Shown piece after piece: positions 1,877 through 29,200 of a stretch of 31,893 bases of DNA. Where the stretch lies: positions 1-31,893 of the IMG/VR virus record IMGVR_UViG_3300032288_000999. The stretch is one strand, 5' to 3'. The number at the start of each line of letters is the position of its first letter. Position 1 is the stretch's first letter. The position numbers were made by a program, and so were the translations under genes. The notes beneath the pieces were generated by a model. That model searched no databases and had not been told where the DNA came from. It saw only the letters and a list, made by a program, of their open reading frames with translations. The DNA is from a virus.

Positions 1877-2307
1877 ATCGTTGGCATATCGCACTTATCA
1901 AATGCTGAAGTGCTTGTTAAACTTAAAGTTAATTGTACTCCACTTAAATAATCTTCGAACTTTTCGCTAATAACATCAAAACGAATATTGTCATCAATAA
2001 CAAATTCATTTGCTCCGTTTCTTAAACTGCTTATTATATCCCCTGCTACTTGGTGCATATCATTTACAACTTCAGTTTCAAATTCTCCTTCAACCCCTGA
2101 CTTATCTATAAACCAAAATTGAATATCAAATTGATGTTGCTTCCCAAGATTAAAAGAACCTGAATTAATAGAAAAGGAAGCTAAAGGAAATACAGGTTGG
2201 TCATCCCAATTTAACCACTCTATTGGTGTCGCAAACTTTGTTGTGTGAATCATTGCGTGGCTTTCCAACAGGCTTGTTATTTCCGTTGCTAATTGTTTGT
2301 AGGTCAT
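1873..2307 (-). CDS. Probable neck / tail terminator protein
   Basis: This 144-residue protein has the size and mixed alpha/beta pattern of tail terminator or head completion proteins: an N-terminal helix (TYKQLATEITSLLES), then beta-rich segments with W and F residues (QHQFDIQFWFIDKSG), a helix (VNDMHQVAGDIISSL) and a last beta segment (GVQLTLSLTST). It follows the connector gene and its stop overlaps the fibre start as ATGA, so it is in the head-to-tail junction block. No catalytic motif is visible. Assignment to the neck rests on size, layout and position only. Confidence 0.65.
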   Translation of the reverse strand: MTYKQLATEITSLLESHAMIHTTKFATPIEWLNWDDQPVFPLASFSINSGSFNLGKQHQFDIQFWFIDKSGVEGEFETEVVNDMHQVAGDIISSLRNGANEFVIDDNIRFDVISEKFEDYLSGVQLTLSLTSTSAFDKCDMPTI

Positions 2308-3151: not shown

Positions 3152-5166
3152 TACTTTTGTTTTCTTGTTACTATATTAGCTTTCCATTCGTGCCTACATT
3201 GGTAACTATGTGTTCCGTCAGGCATTGTCCACCATCCACCGCATCTATCCCAAACTGAATAACCTACTCGCTTACTGATATTCTCAATGTCCTGTCTTGA
3301 CCAAAACTTTGTCAAACTTAAATCCATTAGCCTTTGGCAAAATGGTCTTGAAGTGTTGTAATCTCTTTGCGAAGCAGGAACACGCCAATCGTAAGAATAC
3401 ATAATTAGAATGTCATTAACCTTTGAACTCTTACCAGGAAGTTCAGAAACAGGCTTATTAACATACCTTCTTACTACTTCATCTTCACCAATTAATGTTT
3501 TTTTTTCGGTAATAATTTTATTACCTACCAATTCGCTGATAGTAGCTTCAATATCCTTTAAAGGTTTCTTCAAAGTTTCTGCTATCACTTCAGGTGCAAT
3601 CAATGGTTGTTTTGTAATCAATGAAAGAACATCCGCTTGAAGTTGATTTAAAGCCATTTCAAAGCCGTTAAAAGACCTTGTTTCAGTTATTGAATATAAA
3701 CTCCTATCCGAGCCACAAGAAGCAAATTCTTGAAGAAGAAGTTCATCTGCATCCATTGAGAATTTAGTTATTTCGTCATCGGTTAATGGGTCATCATCTA
3801 CACCAAGAAAAGTGTTAACATCTGCATCAGTAAAACCGAATCCATTCTTTAGCATCAAAGTAGCTTGACCTTTAGTTAGTTTGCCGTTTCCGAACTGCCT
3901 AACTATTCGCATTACATTTTGATATTGCCTACCTGTTAGATTCTTAATAGCATCGTTCATTTCAGTTTTTACTTCTGCAGGTTTTACTACTTTTTCAGTT
4001 TCAGGATTTACAACCACTATTTGACCATCTGAAGTAACTTGACCTGCTTCAAGTGGCTTTCTACCCATCAATTCTCTAATCTCGTTTTGTGTAAGATTAG
4101 CAGCAATAACTGCTTCAGTAAATTCAAACTTCAAAGGCTCTACAGGTTGAATAACAAAATCCCCTTGTTCACCTTTAAGATTTCTGAAATTGGTAAATAT
4201 AACTTCCAATTCCTTCTGCCTTTCTTGAACGTATGTATTATTAAAAATTTCGTAAGCATCCCTAATTTCATTCCTTGCTCCTAATTGCCCTTCGGTCTTA
4301 ATACCAAATAAGGTAGGACTTGTAACTTGGTGCGAAGCAAAGATTTCTTGCTGAATTAAATTGTTGACATTTGTAAAATCTTCTTTAGTCAACATCGTTG
4401 TTCCTAAATCAAGAATATCTGCTGCGTTATCCTTTGACTTATTGAACATTATAACAACTCGCTTACCTTCTGAACCTGTAAATTTCTTTAACAAATCCCT
4501 TTCAACTTCACCCTTTATTTCCTCTCCGATAGGGTCGCCATTGTTAAGATTGACAAGTTTAGTTCCTACCCATCCTTGATTAGCGTTTCCAAGAATATGC
4601 CTACTTACCTTTATGTCCGATTCAATGTAATTTAACCCTTGATAGTACGATGGCAAAGGATATATTTCTGAAACAGGGTTATATTCTTTGTAGTAAAAGA
4701 TTTGACTGCCGTAAGGATTGTTCACATTGAAAGCCTCATATTCTCTTGGCTTTTCTCTCATATCATTCCAATCGTTTTTAACGTAAAACGTTTGAAGGTC
4801 TTTACTAACCCTAACCTTTGCAAAATCTATATGGTAAACTTCGCTTACTTGCTTTGCTCTATTCCAAATTACTTGAAGATAATAACCCCTAAATAATTCG
4901 TCATCCTTAATGCACTTCTTTAGAATGTCATTCCAACTTTCTAAACTATTAGCAACTCCAGGTTCTTCAAAACCCTTTCCGTAAATGTAATTAGATTTAC
5001 CCTTTACAATTGCTCCGTGTTTAGGTGATTCAGAATAAAGGTCAATTAAATACTTCGGATAGTCATTATCCTTTCCGAATTCAACATAACCCTTACTTTT
5101 CTTTTCAGTAAATTTCGGTTGTTGTGCTTGGTCAAAAGCCAAAACAATATGCTTGTAATTATCCAT
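3151..5166 (-). CDS. Portal protein with C-terminal head-morphogenesis-like extension
   Basis: At 671 residues this is longer than most portals. Residues 1 to about 400 have the portal build: an N-terminal segment with FGKDNDYPKYLIDLYSES, a crown/wing region, a long helical stem with the QQEIFASHQVTSPTLFGI stretch, and an ARNEIRDAYEIFNNTYV helix. The portal forms the dodecameric ring for DNA entry. A charged linker follows, then a winged-helix-like stretch (about 510-580), and at the end a compact domain with Cys642, Cys657 and His659 (GGWW then CRHEWK), resembling the C-terminus of Mu F-like minor head proteins. The portal may thus carry a minor-head function normally encoded separately. It overlaps the preceding small gene by eight bases. 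Confidence 0.85.
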   Translation of the reverse strand: MDNYKHIVLAFDQAQQPKFTEKKSKGYVEFGKDNDYPKYLIDLYSESPKHGAIVKGKSNYIYGKGFEEPGVANSLESWNDILKKCIKDDELFRGYYLQVIWNRAKQVSEVYHIDFAKVRVSKDLQTFYVKNDWNDMREKPREYEAFNVNNPYGSQIFYYKEYNPVSEIYPLPSYYQGLNYIESDIKVSRHILGNANQGWVGTKLVNLNNGDPIGEEIKGEVERDLLKKFTGSEGKRVVIMFNKSKDNAADILDLGTTMLTKEDFTNVNNLIQQEIFASHQVTSPTLFGIKTEGQLGARNEIRDAYEIFNNTYVQERQKELEVIFTNFRNLKGEQGDFVIQPVEPLKFEFTEAVIAANLTQNEIRELMGRKPLEAGQVTSDGQIVVVNPETEKVVKPAEVKTEMNDAIKNLTGRQYQNVMRIVRQFGNGKLTKGQATLMLKNGFGFTDADVNTFLGVDDDPLTDDEITKFSMDADELLLQEFASCGSDRSLYSITETRSFNGFEMALNQLQADVLSLITKQPLIAPEVIAETLKKPLKDIEATISELVGNKIITEKKTLIGEDEVVRRYVNKPVSELPGKSSKVNDILIMYSYDWRVPASQRDYNTSRPFCQRLMDLSLTKFWSRQDIENISKRVGYSVWDRCGGWWTMPDGTHSYQCRHEWKANIVTRKQK

Positions 5167-17711: not shown

Positions 17712-18893
17712 TTATTCCGATGTTTTAATATAAGGTAACCCATTTCTTTTAACTTCTAAAGTTGGGTCAAGTTTAAGCATTCTATCAACTATTACTTGAC
17801 AATATTTAGGGTCTAATTCCATTCCGTAACATTTGCGTTTAAGTTGATGAGCTGCGACCATTGTTGAACCTGAACCTAAAAAGAAGTCAAAAACTAAACT
17901 TCCTTTATTTGAACTTATTTGCATTTCATTTGAAATTAATTCTATTGGTTTCATTGTAGGATGCAATCCTGTTTCCCTTCCAAATTCTAAACATCTTGAA
18001 TAATTAACATCTTTTAGTCCATTGTTCCAAATTGCTGATTTTCTAAATAAAAGTAAATATTCAATATCAGGTCTATGTGAATCACCAATAGGAATAGCAT
18101 TTGGCTTTTTCCAAATTAAAACATTAAAAGAATAACCGCTATCTCTTGCCCAAACTAAATAATCAGGTAATAATTCTTTATTACAAAATATGTAAGCATT
18201 AAGTTTGTTCTTTTGAAATATTAATGGAAGAACTTGTAAAAATTCAGTAGGTTCAAAATTTGCTATAAATTCTATACTTGCTCCTTGTTTTCTTAATCCT
18301 TGACCTATACTTCCATTACATCCACCTTCAGTTTCAATTTTATATGGTGGGTCGGTAAATACCATATCTGCCTTTTCTCCATTCATTAGCTTTGCCACTT
18401 GGTCTGAATCCGTACTATCCCCACAAAACAAACGATGCTCCCCTATTTCAAATAAATCACCTAAAACAATATCAGTTTTTATTTCATTAGGAACTTCAAA
18501 ATCATCTTCTTCAGCTTCAAGTTCTTTAACTGCGAAATCAGGAATATCTAAACCCCATTCCTCTAACTTTTCAGCATCCCAATTATTAGCCAGGTCATCC
18601 CAATCCCATTCACCGAAGCCAACATTATCTTTAATTATAAATTCTTTAAGTTCTTCTTCAGTAAAATCTTTTGCCTGTTTAACCCAAGTTTCAGGAATTT
18701 CTTTATAACCTAATTCATTCAATGCTTTTAGTCGCATATTACCACCTTGAACTATAAAGTTTTCATCTACAACAATAGGTCTTAACTCCATCATTTTAGG
18801 AAGTGCCTTAATTGATTCGCAAAGTTTCTTGAACTTTTCATCCTTGATAATTCTTGGATTATTAGGATTGCTTTTGATTTGGTTTAGTTTCAT
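17712..18893 (-). CDS. ParB-like domain fused to DNA methyltransferase (N6-A or N4-C)
   Basis: Residues 1-90 form a ParB/sulfiredoxin-like domain (IKSNPNNPR near the start and GGNMRLKALNELGY, 50-63). Residues 140-375 form a methyltransferase: catalytic DPPY (181-184), a target-binding stretch, HPTMKP (311-316) and the AdoMet site FFLGSGST (337-344). Catalytic motif before AdoMet motif is the beta-class order; DPPY indicates methylation of an exocyclic amino group of adenine or cytosine. Such enzymes usually lack a partner nuclease in phages and protect the genome from host restriction. The start overlaps the GT2 gene stop as ATGA, and terminase follows after nine bases. The target site cannot be read from the sequence. 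Confidence 0.85.
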   Translation of the reverse strand: MKLNQIKSNPNNPRIIKDEKFKKLCESIKALPKMMELRPIVVDENFIVQGGNMRLKALNELGYKEIPETWVKQAKDFTEEELKEFIIKDNVGFGEWDWDDLANNWDAEKLEEWGLDIPDFAVKELEAEEDDFEVPNEIKTDIVLGDLFEIGEHRLFCGDSTDSDQVAKLMNGEKADMVFTDPPYKIETEGGCNGSIGQGLRKQGASIEFIANFEPTEFLQVLPLIFQKNKLNAYIFCNKELLPDYLVWARDSGYSFNVLIWKKPNAIPIGDSHRPDIEYLLLFRKSAIWNNGLKDVNYSRCLEFGRETGLHPTMKPIELISNEMQISSNKGSLVFDFFLGSGSTMVAAHQLKRKCYGMELDPKYCQVIVDRMLKLDPTLEVKRNGLPYIKTSE

Positions 18894-22315: not shown

Positions 22316-22681
22316 TTATTTTAGTTTGTATTTTAAAATAATGTCTTCAAGTTCTACCCTATCCCATTTCTTTACATTATTCCTGCTCTTACTTTCCAAT
22401 TCATAAACTTTAGCATCTCCATACCTTTCAACTAACCCCATCCTGTAATGAATCAAGTTTCCGTGAAGGAAGTTATTACACCTTAAACATTGACCATTGA
22501 CATTAGTTTCGTCAAACGTTAGTAGTGAATAATGCCCTGAACTGAAGTAATGCCCAGCGTGGTCTATTTTACCACCACAAGAAATGCACCCTAAATCCTT
22601 ATCCCTTTCACGAATCCACTTATTAAAAACTTCTTGTGCTTTCTTTTTAAGTTTCGGCAGGTCTATCTTTTTTGCTTTCAT
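22316..22681 (-). CDS. ninG: NinG/Rap-like recombination nuclease
   Basis: The 121 residues match the lambda NinG (Rap) pattern: a basic N-terminus with FNKWIRERDKD, zinc pair CISCG (Cys32, Cys35), AGHYFSSGHYS with His41/44/50, FDETNVNGQCLRCNNFLHGN with Cys65 and Cys68, and a helix with MGLVERYGD. The family is a structure-specific Holliday junction or D-loop nuclease in phage recombination. Its place after the replication genes and in the same operon as the ERF annealing protein supports joint action in recombination-dependent replication. It overlaps the upstream gene by 35 bases. Confidence 0.85.
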   Translation of the reverse strand: MKAKKIDLPKLKKKAQEVFNKWIRERDKDLGCISCGGKIDHAGHYFSSGHYSLLTFDETNVNGQCLRCNNFLHGNLIHYRMGLVERYGDAKVYELESKSRNNVKKWDRVELEDIILKYKLK

Positions 22682-23456
22682 AAAATTTTTTAAAGGCTAT
22701 TTTTTTGCTTAAATTCTGCAACCTAAACTTTTCTTCATCGGTTATTTCATTCTTCTTAACCATTTCAAAAAACATATTATTAGCCATAATGTCATCAATT
22801 CGGTTAGATTTAGCGTTTGAACTTAATTCCCTTTGCCGATAACTTTTTGCTTCATCATAAATCTTTAACTTTTCTTCTTTAGTTAAATTTATATATCCTA
22901 ACTTTTCTGCATATTCATAAATAAAGATAGGTATTAGATTAATCTCTAAAGTATTTTTAGAAAGATATTCTTCAACGTCTTGAATCATTTCTTTTTGTGA
23001 TATTTCATTAGAAGCCATAGGAAGCGAAATTTCGGCTTTTGTTTCTTTTGTGTGTAATTCCCTTCTTAAAGTAAGATAAGGCTTTAAAACGTCATCTAAT
23101 GCAGTTAGGTTAAAGTTTTTACCCCAATCATTGATAGTAAAGTTTCTAAAAGCATATTCTATCTCATTTGTGTTTAGGAATGAATAAGATTCCTGAAGTT
23201 TTAAAGAAAGTTGTTCTGCGAAAATATCAAGCAAATTTTTGTCTAAAATGTTCCATCCTGTGATTACGTTCATTTTTATGATTAGCGAATAAGCAGAAAG
23301 TTTTAGTTCTTCAGTATTCATTTGTTTGAATGGAATTCCAGATTCTTTAGCCTTCATTACCCCCACCATATAACTTGGCATAGAGTTCAGCACCTTTTGC
23401 TTGGATGTACTCAATTGATTCGTTGGTAGTTTGTTGTCTTGTTTTTGAAGTTGCAT
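22647..23456 (-). CDS. Replication-region protein, possible helicase-loader position
   Basis: The 269 residues are largely helical with no clear ATPase or zinc motif. A conserved-looking middle (NTNEIEYAFRNFTINDWGKN, then LTALDDVLKPYLTLRRE) resembles proteins that follow the initiator in Bacteroidota phages, the position of lambda P. The C-terminus is charged (DEEKFRLQNLSKKIAFKKFY). The longest start overlaps the initiator by 110 bases; Met codons at 23381 or 23357 would shorten the overlap to 35 or 11 bases and may be the real start. Function by position only. Confidence 0.6.
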   Translation of the reverse strand: MQLQKQDNKLPTNQLSTSKQKVLNSMPSYMVGVMKAKESGIPFKQMNTEELKLSAYSLIIKMNVITGWNILDKNLLDIFAEQLSLKLQESYSFLNTNEIEYAFRNFTINDWGKNFNLTALDDVLKPYLTLRRELHTKETKAEISLPMASNEISQKEMIQDVEEYLSKNTLEINLIPIFIYEYAEKLGYINLTKEEKLKIYDEAKSYRQRELSSNAKSNRIDDIMANNMFFEMVKKNEITDEEKFRLQNLSKKIAFKKFYESKKDRPAET

Positions 23457-24162
23457 CTTTAAATTTTTGTGTTTTTAACCAATTGGTAAAATGAAGATAA
23501 ACTTTGTTTTGAGAATTGTAATGAGTTTCTCCAGTAAGATTTTGGACTTTAAACGCTTCCCACATTTGAATAACTTGGCTTTCAGATAAATCTATTTTTT
23601 GACTGATTTTTATTAACTGAATTGAAGAATGAAGATATTGTTCAGGCAGTCCGTTAAAATCTGAACTTAAATATTTTTTGCCTCTTAAAATTATTTCTTC
23701 TTCTTTACTTTCTTTTTCTTCTAATTCTTCTTTATATATGTTCACCTGTTGTTCATCTGTTGTTCGTCTGTTGTTCACCTGTTGTTCATTTGCTGTGCAT
23801 TGGCTGTTCATAGGCTGTTCAATTTCATCTGATTTGCTTTGATAACTATCATATTTACAAATAGTTACGACTGAATAATGGTTGTTCACTTCAATATCAA
23901 TTTGGCCTAATTCTTGAAATTTAAGCAATGTTCTATAAATCAAACTACCATTAATTCCAAGTTCTTCTTCAGCCTTATTTCTACCAAAGATTAATTGCCC
24001 TCTTTTAACCTCTATTGTTTTAAATCCTTTGCCTACATTTAAAGGAATAAAAGCACTCTTAAAGTTGGCTTTAATTAATAACCAAATCCAAATTTTAAGA
24101 TGGTTAGGATTAGCAAATGAATAGCTATAAAGTAAATCCCTATCTAATTTAATGTAACTCAT
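23347..24162 (-). CDS. Winged-helix replication initiator carrying the origin
   Basis: I choose ATG at 24160-24162, one base after the previous stop; a Met three codons upstream is also possible. The N-terminal domain (about 1-105) has a winged-helix look: YIKLDRDLLYSYSFANPNHL, KIWIWLLIKANFK, VKRGQLIFGRNKAEEELG, then NGSLIYRTLLKFQELGQ as a recognition helix and a wing. A Gln/Asn-rich linker is encoded by 11-bp iterons, then an acidic stretch, then a helical C-terminal domain (ESQVIQMWEAFKVQNL, HFTNWLKTQKF) like DnaD/O-type proteins. As in lambda O, the initiator probably binds repeats within its own gene. It is the central gene of the replication block. Confidence 0.75.
   Translation of the reverse strand: MSYIKLDRDLLYSYSFANPNHLKIWIWLLIKANFKSAFIPLNVGKGFKTIEVKRGQLIFGRNKAEEELGINGSLIYRTLLKFQELGQIDIEVNNHYSVVTICKYDSYQSKSDEIEQPMNSQCTANEQQVNNRRTTDEQQVNIYKEELEEKESKEEEIILRGKKYLSSDFNGLPEQYLHSSIQLIKISQKIDLSESQVIQMWEAFKVQNLTGETHYNSQNKVYLHFTNWLKTQKFKDATSKTRQQTTNESIEYIQAKGAELYAKLYGGGNEG
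23740..23827. repeat. 11-bp iterons, candidate replication origin
   Basis: Seven complete tandem units of 11 bp start at 23740, 23751, 23762, 23773, 23784, 23795 and 23806, followed by a partial eighth (GTTCA). Plus-strand consensus is GTTCATCTGTT; units 1 to 4 differ by one or two bases, 5 to 7 diverge at the end. Since 11 is not a multiple of three, the units are read in all three frames, so similarity must be kept at the DNA level. The 11-bp pitch puts sites on one face of the helix. An AT- and purine-rich stretch (23650-23740) adjoins, as an unwinding element would. Confidence 0.75.
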
Positions 24163-24163
24163 T

Positions 24164-24355
24164 TTAATCATTTAAATCTTTAAGAATAAAGTTTAGGTCG
24201 CAAATAAATTCTTTTAATTCATCTGCAGTTAAATCAACAAACTGAATGTCAGTAAAATTTTCTAAATGTATTCTAATCAAATTGTCATTTGTTTTAAAAT
24301 AAGTTAAAAAACTTGTTCCTTCAACATCATTAAAATATCTTTTTTCTATTGGCAT
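24164..24355 (-). CDS. Small protein upstream of the initiator, unknown function
   Basis: I choose ATG at 24353-24355 (63 residues, MPIEKRYFNDVEG...). An upstream GTG lies inside a strong hairpin stem and is unlikely. The protein has a beta part (FLTYFKTNDNLIRIHLENFT) and an acidic helical end (ADELKEFICDLNFILKDLND). It overlaps or abuts the initiator start, so it shares translation with it. The leader hairpins just upstream suggest its translation or transcription is controlled. Confidence 0.6.
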   Translation of the reverse strand: MPIEKRYFNDVEGTSFLTYFKTNDNLIRIHLENFTDIQFVDLTADELKEFICDLNFILKDLND

Positions 24356-24365
24356 AAAATAAAAT

Positions 24366-24448
24366 AGCCCCACAGGGACAAGCTGCAGGGCATTTATTTA
24401 GATTTCTCTAAAATAAATTTGTAAATGGCTTGTCCTTCATTTACAAAT
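24366..24448 (-). ncRNA. Structured leader with two hairpins and complementary loops
   Basis: In the minus-strand RNA, hairpin 1 has a perfect 10-bp stem (24448-24439 with 24426-24417) and a 12-base loop containing GGACAAG. Hairpin 2 has a 9-bp stem (24391-24383 with 24375-24367, including a tandem G-U pair) and a 7-base loop CUUGUCC. The whole loop of hairpin 2 is complementary to loop 1, so a kissing complex of 7 bp is possible, as in ColE1-type control RNAs. Hairpin 2 is followed by a U-rich tail (UAUUUUAUUUUAUG) that runs into the next start codon. It may act as an attenuator or translational switch for the replication genes. Confidence 0.65.
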
Positions 24449-24455
24449 CGTTAAA

Positions 24456-24463
24456 CAAATATA
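24456..24463 (-). promoter_or_regulatory. Possible promoter -7 element for the replication genes
   Basis: The minus strand reads TATATTTG, a perfect TAnnTTTG element of Bacteroidota promoters. Transcription would start near 24450, exactly at the outer end of hairpin 1. No TTG lies at the usual 17-23 base distance, so the promoter may be weak or depend on an activator or on another sigma factor. Confidence 0.45.
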
Positions 24464-24487
24464 AATCAATTTTCAATAGGGAAAAAA

Positions 24488-24880
24488 TCACTCGTAAAAA
24501 TAAGTTGTACTTCCGTAAGTTTCCAGAAATACTTCCTTAATCTTAACTCTAAATTCAGGTTCAATATCAATAAGTTCACCAATTCTTTTAACGTGGTGCA
24601 TAACTGAAGTATGGTCTTTGCCACCTAAAATATTTCCAATATGCTTTAAGCCTAAACTTAAATATCTATCCTTTCTTAAAACATAGGCAGCAACCATTCT
24701 TGCTTCAGCTATTTTAGCAGTTCTTCTTTTACCTACTATTTCAGTTACAGGTATTTCAAAGAATTTAGAAATAGATTCTAATATTTCATTTGAATTTAAA
24801 CGCTTACTAATAGGATTTATTTTAAAGTAGGAAGGATGCTCAATACACGGATTACAAACTTCTGATTTTACTTCTAACAT
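24488..24880 (-). CDS. Free-standing DnaA domain IV-like DNA-binding protein
   Basis: Residues 30-125 match the C-terminal DNA-binding domain of DnaA: ILESISKFFEIPVTEIVGKR, then EARMVAAYVLRKDRYLSLGL, the HTH (LKHIGNILGGKDH) and the signature GGKDHTSVMHHVKRI (86-100). The AAA+ part of DnaA is absent. The first 25 residues have Cys10, Cys13 and His15 (CNPCIEH). It lies immediately before the structured leader and the initiator gene. It could recruit or displace host DnaA, or act as a regulator at an origin-like site. No perfect DnaA box was seen near it. Confidence 0.8.
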   Translation of the reverse strand: MLEVKSEVCNPCIEHPSYFKINPISKRLNSNEILESISKFFEIPVTEIVGKRRTAKIAEARMVAAYVLRKDRYLSLGLKHIGNILGGKDHTSVMHHVKRIGELIDIEPEFRVKIKEVFLETYGSTTYFYE

Positions 24881-28880: not shown

Positions 28881-28930
28881 CGCAATCTAAAAAACAAATC
28901 CTAAAAACCAAATCCTATAAAACAAGAAAC

Positions 28931-29200
28931 CTAATTATCTTCTTCATCCTCAAACAATTCATCGTGCATCTCATTTATACACGATTCTATTATCCTTATT
29001 GACTTCTTTATTATCTTCTTAATCTTCCTCGCTTCATCCTTCGTGAGCAAAAGTAAATCAATTCCTTCTACTGCAGAAATTGAATAGTAAGCACAACTTA
29101 CATAGTCCATCCTTGTAGTATATTCAAAATCAAAGTTTTCTTCTATTTCTTTGATTTCTTCCGATGTAGGTTCTTGCTCTACTTTTATTTCTTCACTCAT
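28931..29200 (-). CDS. Acidic small protein at the end of the operon
   Basis: The 89 residues are very acidic at both ends (MSEEIKVEQEPTSEEIKEIE and EMHDELFEDEEDN), with a central part YVSCAYYSISAVEGIDLLLL and a basic helix (KDEARKIKKIIKKSIRIIES). The DNA-mimic-like charge is notable but common in small phage proteins. It is the last gene before the terminator. No family recognised. Confidence 0.6.
   Translation of the reverse strand: MSEEIKVEQEPTSEEIKEIEENFDFEYTTRMDYVSCAYYSISAVEGIDLLLLTKDEARKIKKIIKKSIRIIESCINEMHDELFEDEEDN

Follow-up and report, generated by a model that had tools for sequence, protein, structure and literature searches.

The replication origin of the phage in virus record IMGVR_UViG_3300032288_000999 very probably lies inside its initiator gene, where an array of 11-bp iterons for the initiator of the same gene is joined to an A-rich tract, in the manner of lambda O. 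The record was analysed at its full length of 31,893 bases, referred to below as the window. The array was conserved among relatives in position and polarity, and its bases covaried with residues of the initiator in a way that was also predicted out of sample.

The 11-bp array and the A-rich tract

The genes of the window lie mostly on the minus strand. The features of the initiator gene are listed below with the basis of each assignment.

23347..24171 (-): initiator gene, 274 aa (ORF; phrog_2514 DnaD-like helicase loader; tblastn matches)
23839..24171 (-): predicted N-terminal winged-helix DNA-binding domain, residues 1-111 (AlphaFold2 and wHTH folds in PDB)
23911..23949 (-): predicted recognition helix, residues 75-87, with S76, Y79 and R80 covarying with iteron bases 10, 0, 1 and 2 (covariation and AlphaFold2)
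23875..23886 (-): predicted wing tip, residues 96-99 (NNHY), with N97 and H98 covarying with iteron base 7 (covariation and AlphaFold2)
23810..23820 (-): iteron 1, GAACAGCCTAT (repeat analysis)
23799..23809 (-): iteron 2, GAACAGCCAAT (repeat analysis)
23788..23798 (-): iteron 3, GCACAGCAAAT (repeat analysis)
23777..23787 (-): iteron 4, GAACAACAGGT (repeat analysis)
23766..23776 (-): iteron 5, GAACAACAGAC (repeat analysis)
23755..23765 (-): iteron 6, GAACAACAGAT (repeat analysis)
23744..23754 (-): iteron 7, GAACAACAGGT, the same letters as iteron 4 (repeat analysis)
23739..23743 (-): partial iteron 8, GAACA, meeting the A-rich tract (repeat analysis; a partial last unit is common in relatives)
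23679..23738 (-): A/purine-rich tract of low stability, candidate DNA-unwinding element (composition and stability)
23347..23678 (-): C-terminal part, swapped among relatives (comparison of L005 and L006)

A preliminary description of this DNA had placed seven tandem 11-bp units plus a partial eighth inside the initiator gene at 23740-23827. The units were confirmed beyond all shuffles and resampling, and the location stood, while the exact ends were a few bases off and were corrected to 23739-23820. The lag-11 identity of the array (55/66) was the highest among lags 5-59 over the entire window, compared with no more than 42 for identity of this type in Markov-1 simulations of the window (n=200). 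The periodicity was attained neither by shuffling the codon order of the linker (0/20000) nor by resampling codons with the protein kept unchanged (0/20000, maximum 52). The degenerate unit GMACARCVRRY occurred six times, always inside the array, with iteron 1 falling just outside the pattern, and was found nowhere else in the window on either strand. Units 1-3 were more degenerate than units 4-7. As described previously, the period is not divisible by three and the reading frame rotates, with successive units in codon phases 0,2,1,0,2,1,0, and EQQVN is repeated eleven residues apart, at initiator residues 129 and 140. The linker residues 115-155, including those encoded by the array, were predicted with pLDDT below 50 by AlphaFold2; the array-encoded segment would be a flexible linker, so that a rotating reading frame is tolerated.

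The adjoining AT- and purine-rich tract was also as previously described: the 60 nt past the array contained 21.7% G+C and 80% purine, compared to 30.1% G+C in the whole initiator gene. When all 60-bp windows of the record were ranked by stability, the tract fell in the lowest 3.2%, and only 13 of the 765 windows within the initiator gene were less stable. Low G+C was also found across the family, in which the partial last unit often ran into an A-rich stretch. Where the junction could be recognised, in 62 arrays, G+C was 20-26% in the 45 nt directly downstream against 38% in the gene; the downstream stretch was below the G+C of its own gene in 61 of them, and 51% of its bases were A. The G+C skew, proposed previously as a check, did not turn clearly at 23.7 kb and did not single out the site.

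Predicted structure of the initiator

Residues 6-159 of the initiator matched phrog_2514, DnaD-like helicase loader, in PHROGs (E 5.7e-23), and the protein had no Pfam match above the cut-off. By tblastn, 97 of 50,697 records in the phage collection were matched; the 60 matches listed, which include the O proteins of HK022 and HK620 and staphylococcal DnaD-like proteins, all cover the N-terminal half. The AlphaFold2 model of residues 11-110 had pLDDT means of 79-94 over blocks of 10 residues and displayed a winged helix with a helix at 64-71, the recognition helix at 75-87 and wing strands at 91-95 and 100-104. No confident fold was given by AlphaFold2 for the C-terminal part, which would serve as the contact to the helicase or replisome. 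The Foldseek search with the full model returned 0 matches at E 0.001, and lambda O was missing among the matches listed, which excludes nothing.

In the structural comparison with PDB, the N-terminal domain resembled many wHTH folds of similar Z. Among these were 4pql, with 93 residues aligned at Z 7.7 and rmsd 2.9, and 4pt7, with 99 aligned at Z 7.5 and rmsd 6.7, both of which we take to be RepA_N proteins, their titles saying only DNA binding protein and initiator. The window initiator had no Pfam RepA_N match at E up to 1.

Conservation of the array among relatives

The scan with the full protein revealed relatives on three viral contigs. The initiator of L004 was 78% identical and its units were altered in concert, to GAACAACACGT and similar. 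The N-terminal domain and array of the window were carried by L005 with a different C-terminal part, and the C-terminal part of the window was carried by L006 with a different N-terminal part and no such array. The N-terminal domain and the array thus act as one module, being together in L005 and both missing in L006.

The L006 initiator gene (3770-4519) contained CATATG at 3934, 3945, 4104, 4115 and 4127, that is, two sites 11 bp apart and three sites 11 and 12 bp apart, and this motif was absent elsewhere in its 8.5 kb. These sites are possibly another in-gene iteron system. The N-terminal part of this initiator gave a weak DUF1376-like match (E 0.055).

For the training set, scans by N-terminal domain alignments only, together with named phage loci and a profile, yielded 212 sequences with the domain, 210 of which had enough tail; they formed 102 clusters under 80% identity, and 91 of the 102 arrays entered the covariation analysis. 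A significant lag-11 signal was detected in the linkers of 97 of the 102 clusters, and in 91 it was reached by 0/300 codon-order shuffles. The best lag was 11 in 77 clusters and 22 in 13. The five clusters lacking a significant lag-11 signal were L067 (12 bp), L072, L144, L203 and L211. Among control ORFs from the same loci, the signal was significant in 1/113 and none stood at 0/300 shuffles. The later nonredundant sets gave significant lag-11 signals in 37/44 (first held-out set), 44/50 (third set) and 10/13 (fourth set). The first held-out set was mostly genomic: of its 102 loci, 79 had the domain on the plus strand, of which 44 were nonredundant, and arrays were called in 26. The third comprised 80 loci (50 nonredundant, 36 arrays). 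The fourth consisted of the 23 held-out loci without the domain on the plus strand, re-read on the opposite strand; the domain was present in 20 of them, and 13 were nonredundant. Arrays of distant genomic loci were irregular. Random sequence at this place in relatives, named in the preliminary description as the finding that would count against an origin, was not seen; the 11-bp arrays were kept.

The same period caller gave lag 20 for lambda O and lag 24 for P22 gene 18, at or inside the annotated origins, and lag 11 for HK620 and phage L, inside the annotated origins, and thus recovers known spacing. When plasmids were searched with the N-terminal domain, 8 of 72,556 records were matched for each of two queries.

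Several further observations were made on these loci. In the L067 and L199 linkers the strongest period was 12 bp instead of 11 bp, which makes them natural variants for one-turn phasing. One relative of the N-terminal domain, L266, lies on a contig whose title names an Archaeoglobus MAG and which may be misbinned. A period-9 signal was present in the flank. The idea that one array is read in different frames across phages was mostly rejected: the junction motif, found in 62 of the 91 arrays, lay in one codon phase in 55, in the second in 4 and in the third in 3. The second-phase arrays (L009, L049, L056 and L062) had closely similar DNA in the other reading frame.

Covariation between initiator residues and iteron bases

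The unit consensus over the 91 arrays was (G/A)A(A/C)CA(A/G)CAAAY, with bases numbered 0 to 10, and each array held 3-7 copies, mostly 4 or 5. At positions 0 to 2 and 10, agreement within arrays was far above agreement between arrays. The covariation of bases 0 and 10 peaked at column 73 in the recognition helix (R80 of the window) with z of about 10-15, that of bases 1 and 2 at columns 69, 72, 73 and 85, and that of base 7 at wing columns 90 and 91, while the best covarying column for 12 control flank positions reached 5.1 only. In the training arrays, Arg at column 73 occurred with G at base 0 in 29/31, Thr with A at base 0 in 17/23, and Lys with G at base 10 in 9/10. The window itself has Arg80 and T|GA, matching this rule.

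Tests that respect the tree were of only moderate strength. With 45 tree-independent pairs, column 73 ranked first of 105 for both base 0 (p 0.0008) and base 10 (p 0.0013), values that are uncorrected for the 105 columns, and all four Arg/Lys pairs (4/4) switched between (T/C)G and GT. With 68 tree-independent pairs, column 73 was again at the top for base 0 (p 0.0016), and for base 10 it came second (p 0.034). A Mantel correlation (r 0.32) was rejected as evidence and is taken as background only, since shared descent alone can yield such a correlation.

The rules were then evaluated on loci outside the training set. In the first held-out set, part of which had received an earlier preliminary look, the single-residue rule was correct for base 10 in 14/26 arrays (p 0.003) and for base 2 in 18/21 (p 0.002); for base 0 its success was not significant (13/26, expected 10, p 0.13). 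A joint rule was fixed in writing after this set and before the scan for the third set. In the 36 arrays of the third set it predicted base 0 in 27/32 (expected 12.6, p 5e-5), base 10 in 11/15 (expected 6.5, p 0.002) and base 2 in 28/30 (expected 16.3, p 5e-5), with p values obtained by permutation that do not allow for shared descent. In the pool of 136 arrays, training data included, Arg73 went with G in 39/41, Thr73 plus Gln69 with A in 29/31, and Thr73 plus Arg69 with G in 8/8. A callable array was present in 2/13 loci of the fourth set, which therefore says almost nothing on the code. The preliminary description had read the rotating frame as a sign of selection on DNA, and this gained support: relatives keep arrays, the bases covary with residues of the recognition helix and wing, and a rule stated beforehand predicts new loci.

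Comparison with known origins

Tandem 11-bp repeats directly after the N-terminal domain, as in the window, are the arrangement of phage L/HK620-type initiators. In passages of PMC8022706, six imprecise 11-bp repeats in gene 18 of phage L are described as the likely origin, which was deduced from the repeats themselves; for P22, four repeats of some 20 bp are given. In phage L (MW013502, locus L096), the lag-11 window 1897-1940 fell inside the annotated ori 1897-1973. Its O-like initiator matched the family profile in the N-terminal domain (E about 2e-29), and the O protein of HK620 matched it with E 4e-31. Both phages were also in the training set of the profile, so tblastn served as the independent test of homology, and by tblastn the N-terminal domains of the HK620 and HK022 O proteins were homologous to that of the window (E 2e-8 and 6e-8). 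Differently from the window, the unit of phage L is TGTCCAACGGA, its host is enterobacterial, and its initiator gene is followed by a gene for a DnaB-like helicase, where the window encodes a protein of 269 aa that belongs to no known family. The annotated rep_origin inside the HK620 gene comprises two short clusters of the 11-bp unit, compared to the single array of seven in the window.

In lambda, according to passages of PMC7466680, the iterons and the AT-rich tract beside them are located centrally in gene O. The window shares this layout, with initiator sites and an AT-rich tract inside the initiator gene in the same order, and the lambda-like layout proposed earlier gained support from HK620 and phage L, in which the annotated origins coincide with 11-bp arrays. 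By the iteron criterion the window differs from lambda, which has four annotated 18-bp iterons spaced 20-24 bp against the seven 11-bp units here. Lambda O, cited in the preliminary description as the established precedent, thus stands as a functional precedent and not as the nearest relative, given family profile E values of 0.62 for lambda O and 0.25 for P22 gp18; the N-terminal domain is of phage L/HK620 type. An indirect link is provided by phrog_345, which is common to HK620 O, phage L O, P22 gp18 and the N-terminal part of lambda O.

A similar organisation is known from plasmids. Passages of PMC5703833 describe pSK41-type plasmids with Rep boxes centrally in rep, which are bound by a wHTH N-terminal domain, an origin that encodes the linker and a separate C-terminal domain, as well as pPR9, in which another N-terminal domain and origin region are joined to the same C-terminal domain as in the pSK41 type. 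The pSK41 RepA_N systems belong to plasmids, whereas the window is a phage. For phages, a related exchange of N-terminal domains is described for Gordonia initiators in passages of PMC10684548. Lambda-type in-gene origins with 11-bp repeats are thus already known from phage L and HK620, and the window adds a member. An 11-bp rule for the whole family and a code that links residues to bases seem to be new, as no report of either was found in the open-licence literature searched; most subscription journals lie outside it and older phage literature may hold more.

Proposed working of the probable origin and alternative explanations

We infer that the initiator physically binds the array, forms a filament, melts the tract and loads the helicase, and that the site is used as an origin. 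Binding of the N-terminal domain to the array gained support from covariation and prediction, on which basis each N-terminal winged helix would bind a single 11-bp unit, with the recognition helix (S76, Y79 and R80) reading bases 10, 0, 1 and 2 and the wing (N97 and H98) reading around base 7. A unit of 11 bp is close to one turn of the helix, so neighbouring protomers would come to lie on the same face of the DNA, packed side by side. By analogy with lambda and pSK41, the packed protomers may strain the weak A-rich tract beside the last unit until it melts, and the C-terminal part would then recruit the replicative helicase. Among the ten proteins scanned, no gene for a helicase or helicase loader was identified, the family name of the initiator itself aside.

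All the support for binding would fit equally well if the repeats were initiator sites for autoregulation or copy-number control (handcuffing) and not the start of replication, and sites within the gene could slow its transcription. Against this, the weak A-rich tract lies on a fixed side of the array, the record holds no other copy of the unit, and the in-gene sites of lambda, P22 and pSK41 are origins, so a purely regulatory role is considered unlikely. A location of the origin elsewhere, for example in the non-coding 28.0-28.9 kb region or near the gene with a DnaA domain, would make the array secondary. The repeats at 28887-28933, the change in sign of the G+C skew around 27-28.5 kb and the DnaA domain IV gene at 24488-24880 are in favour of such a location; the DnaA box TTATNCACA, however, is absent from the window (0 found, 2.1 expected), and it is the array for which family-wide conservation was demonstrated. 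We regard an origin at another place as very unlikely.

The array might also be a neutral or protein-level low-complexity linker rich in Q/N/T that arose by replication slippage. It does sit in a linker predicted to be disordered, such repeats can expand in this way, and the period-9 signal of the flank may be similar. This origin of the repeats is the least probable of the three alternatives, since codon resampling for the unchanged protein never attained the DNA periodicity, a period of 11 bp does not correspond to whole codons, control ORFs (all but 1/113) were without periodicity, and the units diverge between phages yet stay matched to the DNA-binding residues. The array and A-rich tract as the replication origin is the reading that we prefer.

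It appears slightly more probable than not that in-gene origins of this kind, with 11-bp one-turn iterons read by two or three recognition-helix residues and the wing, extend superfamily-wide through phages and prophages of Bacillota, Bacteroidota and Proteobacteria. If so, the protein sequence would be enough to tell the origin specificity, and initiator molecules would form a head-to-tail row on one face beside the melting tract. If the rule holds, sequence would suffice to tell where the origin lies in many phages and prophages, which iteron sequence they carry and to which compatibility group they belong. The match between residues and bases would allow the evolution of initiator specificity to be tested directly in DNA that has to encode the initiator as well, and the one-turn spacing would contrast in a simple, testable way with that of 20-24 bp in lambda and P22.

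Neighbouring genes and other features of the window

A stand-alone DnaA domain IV protein of 130 aa is encoded at 24488-24880 (-), two genes upstream of the initiator (Bac_DnaA_C, E 1.7e-18), and an ORF of equal length and place was found in L005, L006 and L019. The region between this gene and the next ORF (24367-24487) contains a terminator-like hairpin at 24391-24367, and its sequence looked conserved by eye in L004-L006. The 269-aa protein of no known family is encoded at 22647-23456 (-), in a gene that shares 110 bp with the 3' end of the initiator gene and lies at the place where a helicase loader would be expected; the protein was conserved in L005, L006 and L019 with 77-93% identity, and its AlphaFold2 model was poor (pLDDT 38) and was not used. 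No Rfam match was obtained. Between 28000 and 28933, ORFs were few, some stretches had a G+C content of about 26%, and there were 14-bp repeats (28887-28933) and a local sign change of the G+C skew. A DNA methylase is encoded at 17712-18893 (-) (N6_N4_Mtase, E 8e-24); its N-terminal part seems to be ParB-like, with a ParB_N match (E 7.5e-4) that falls below the Pfam cut-off.
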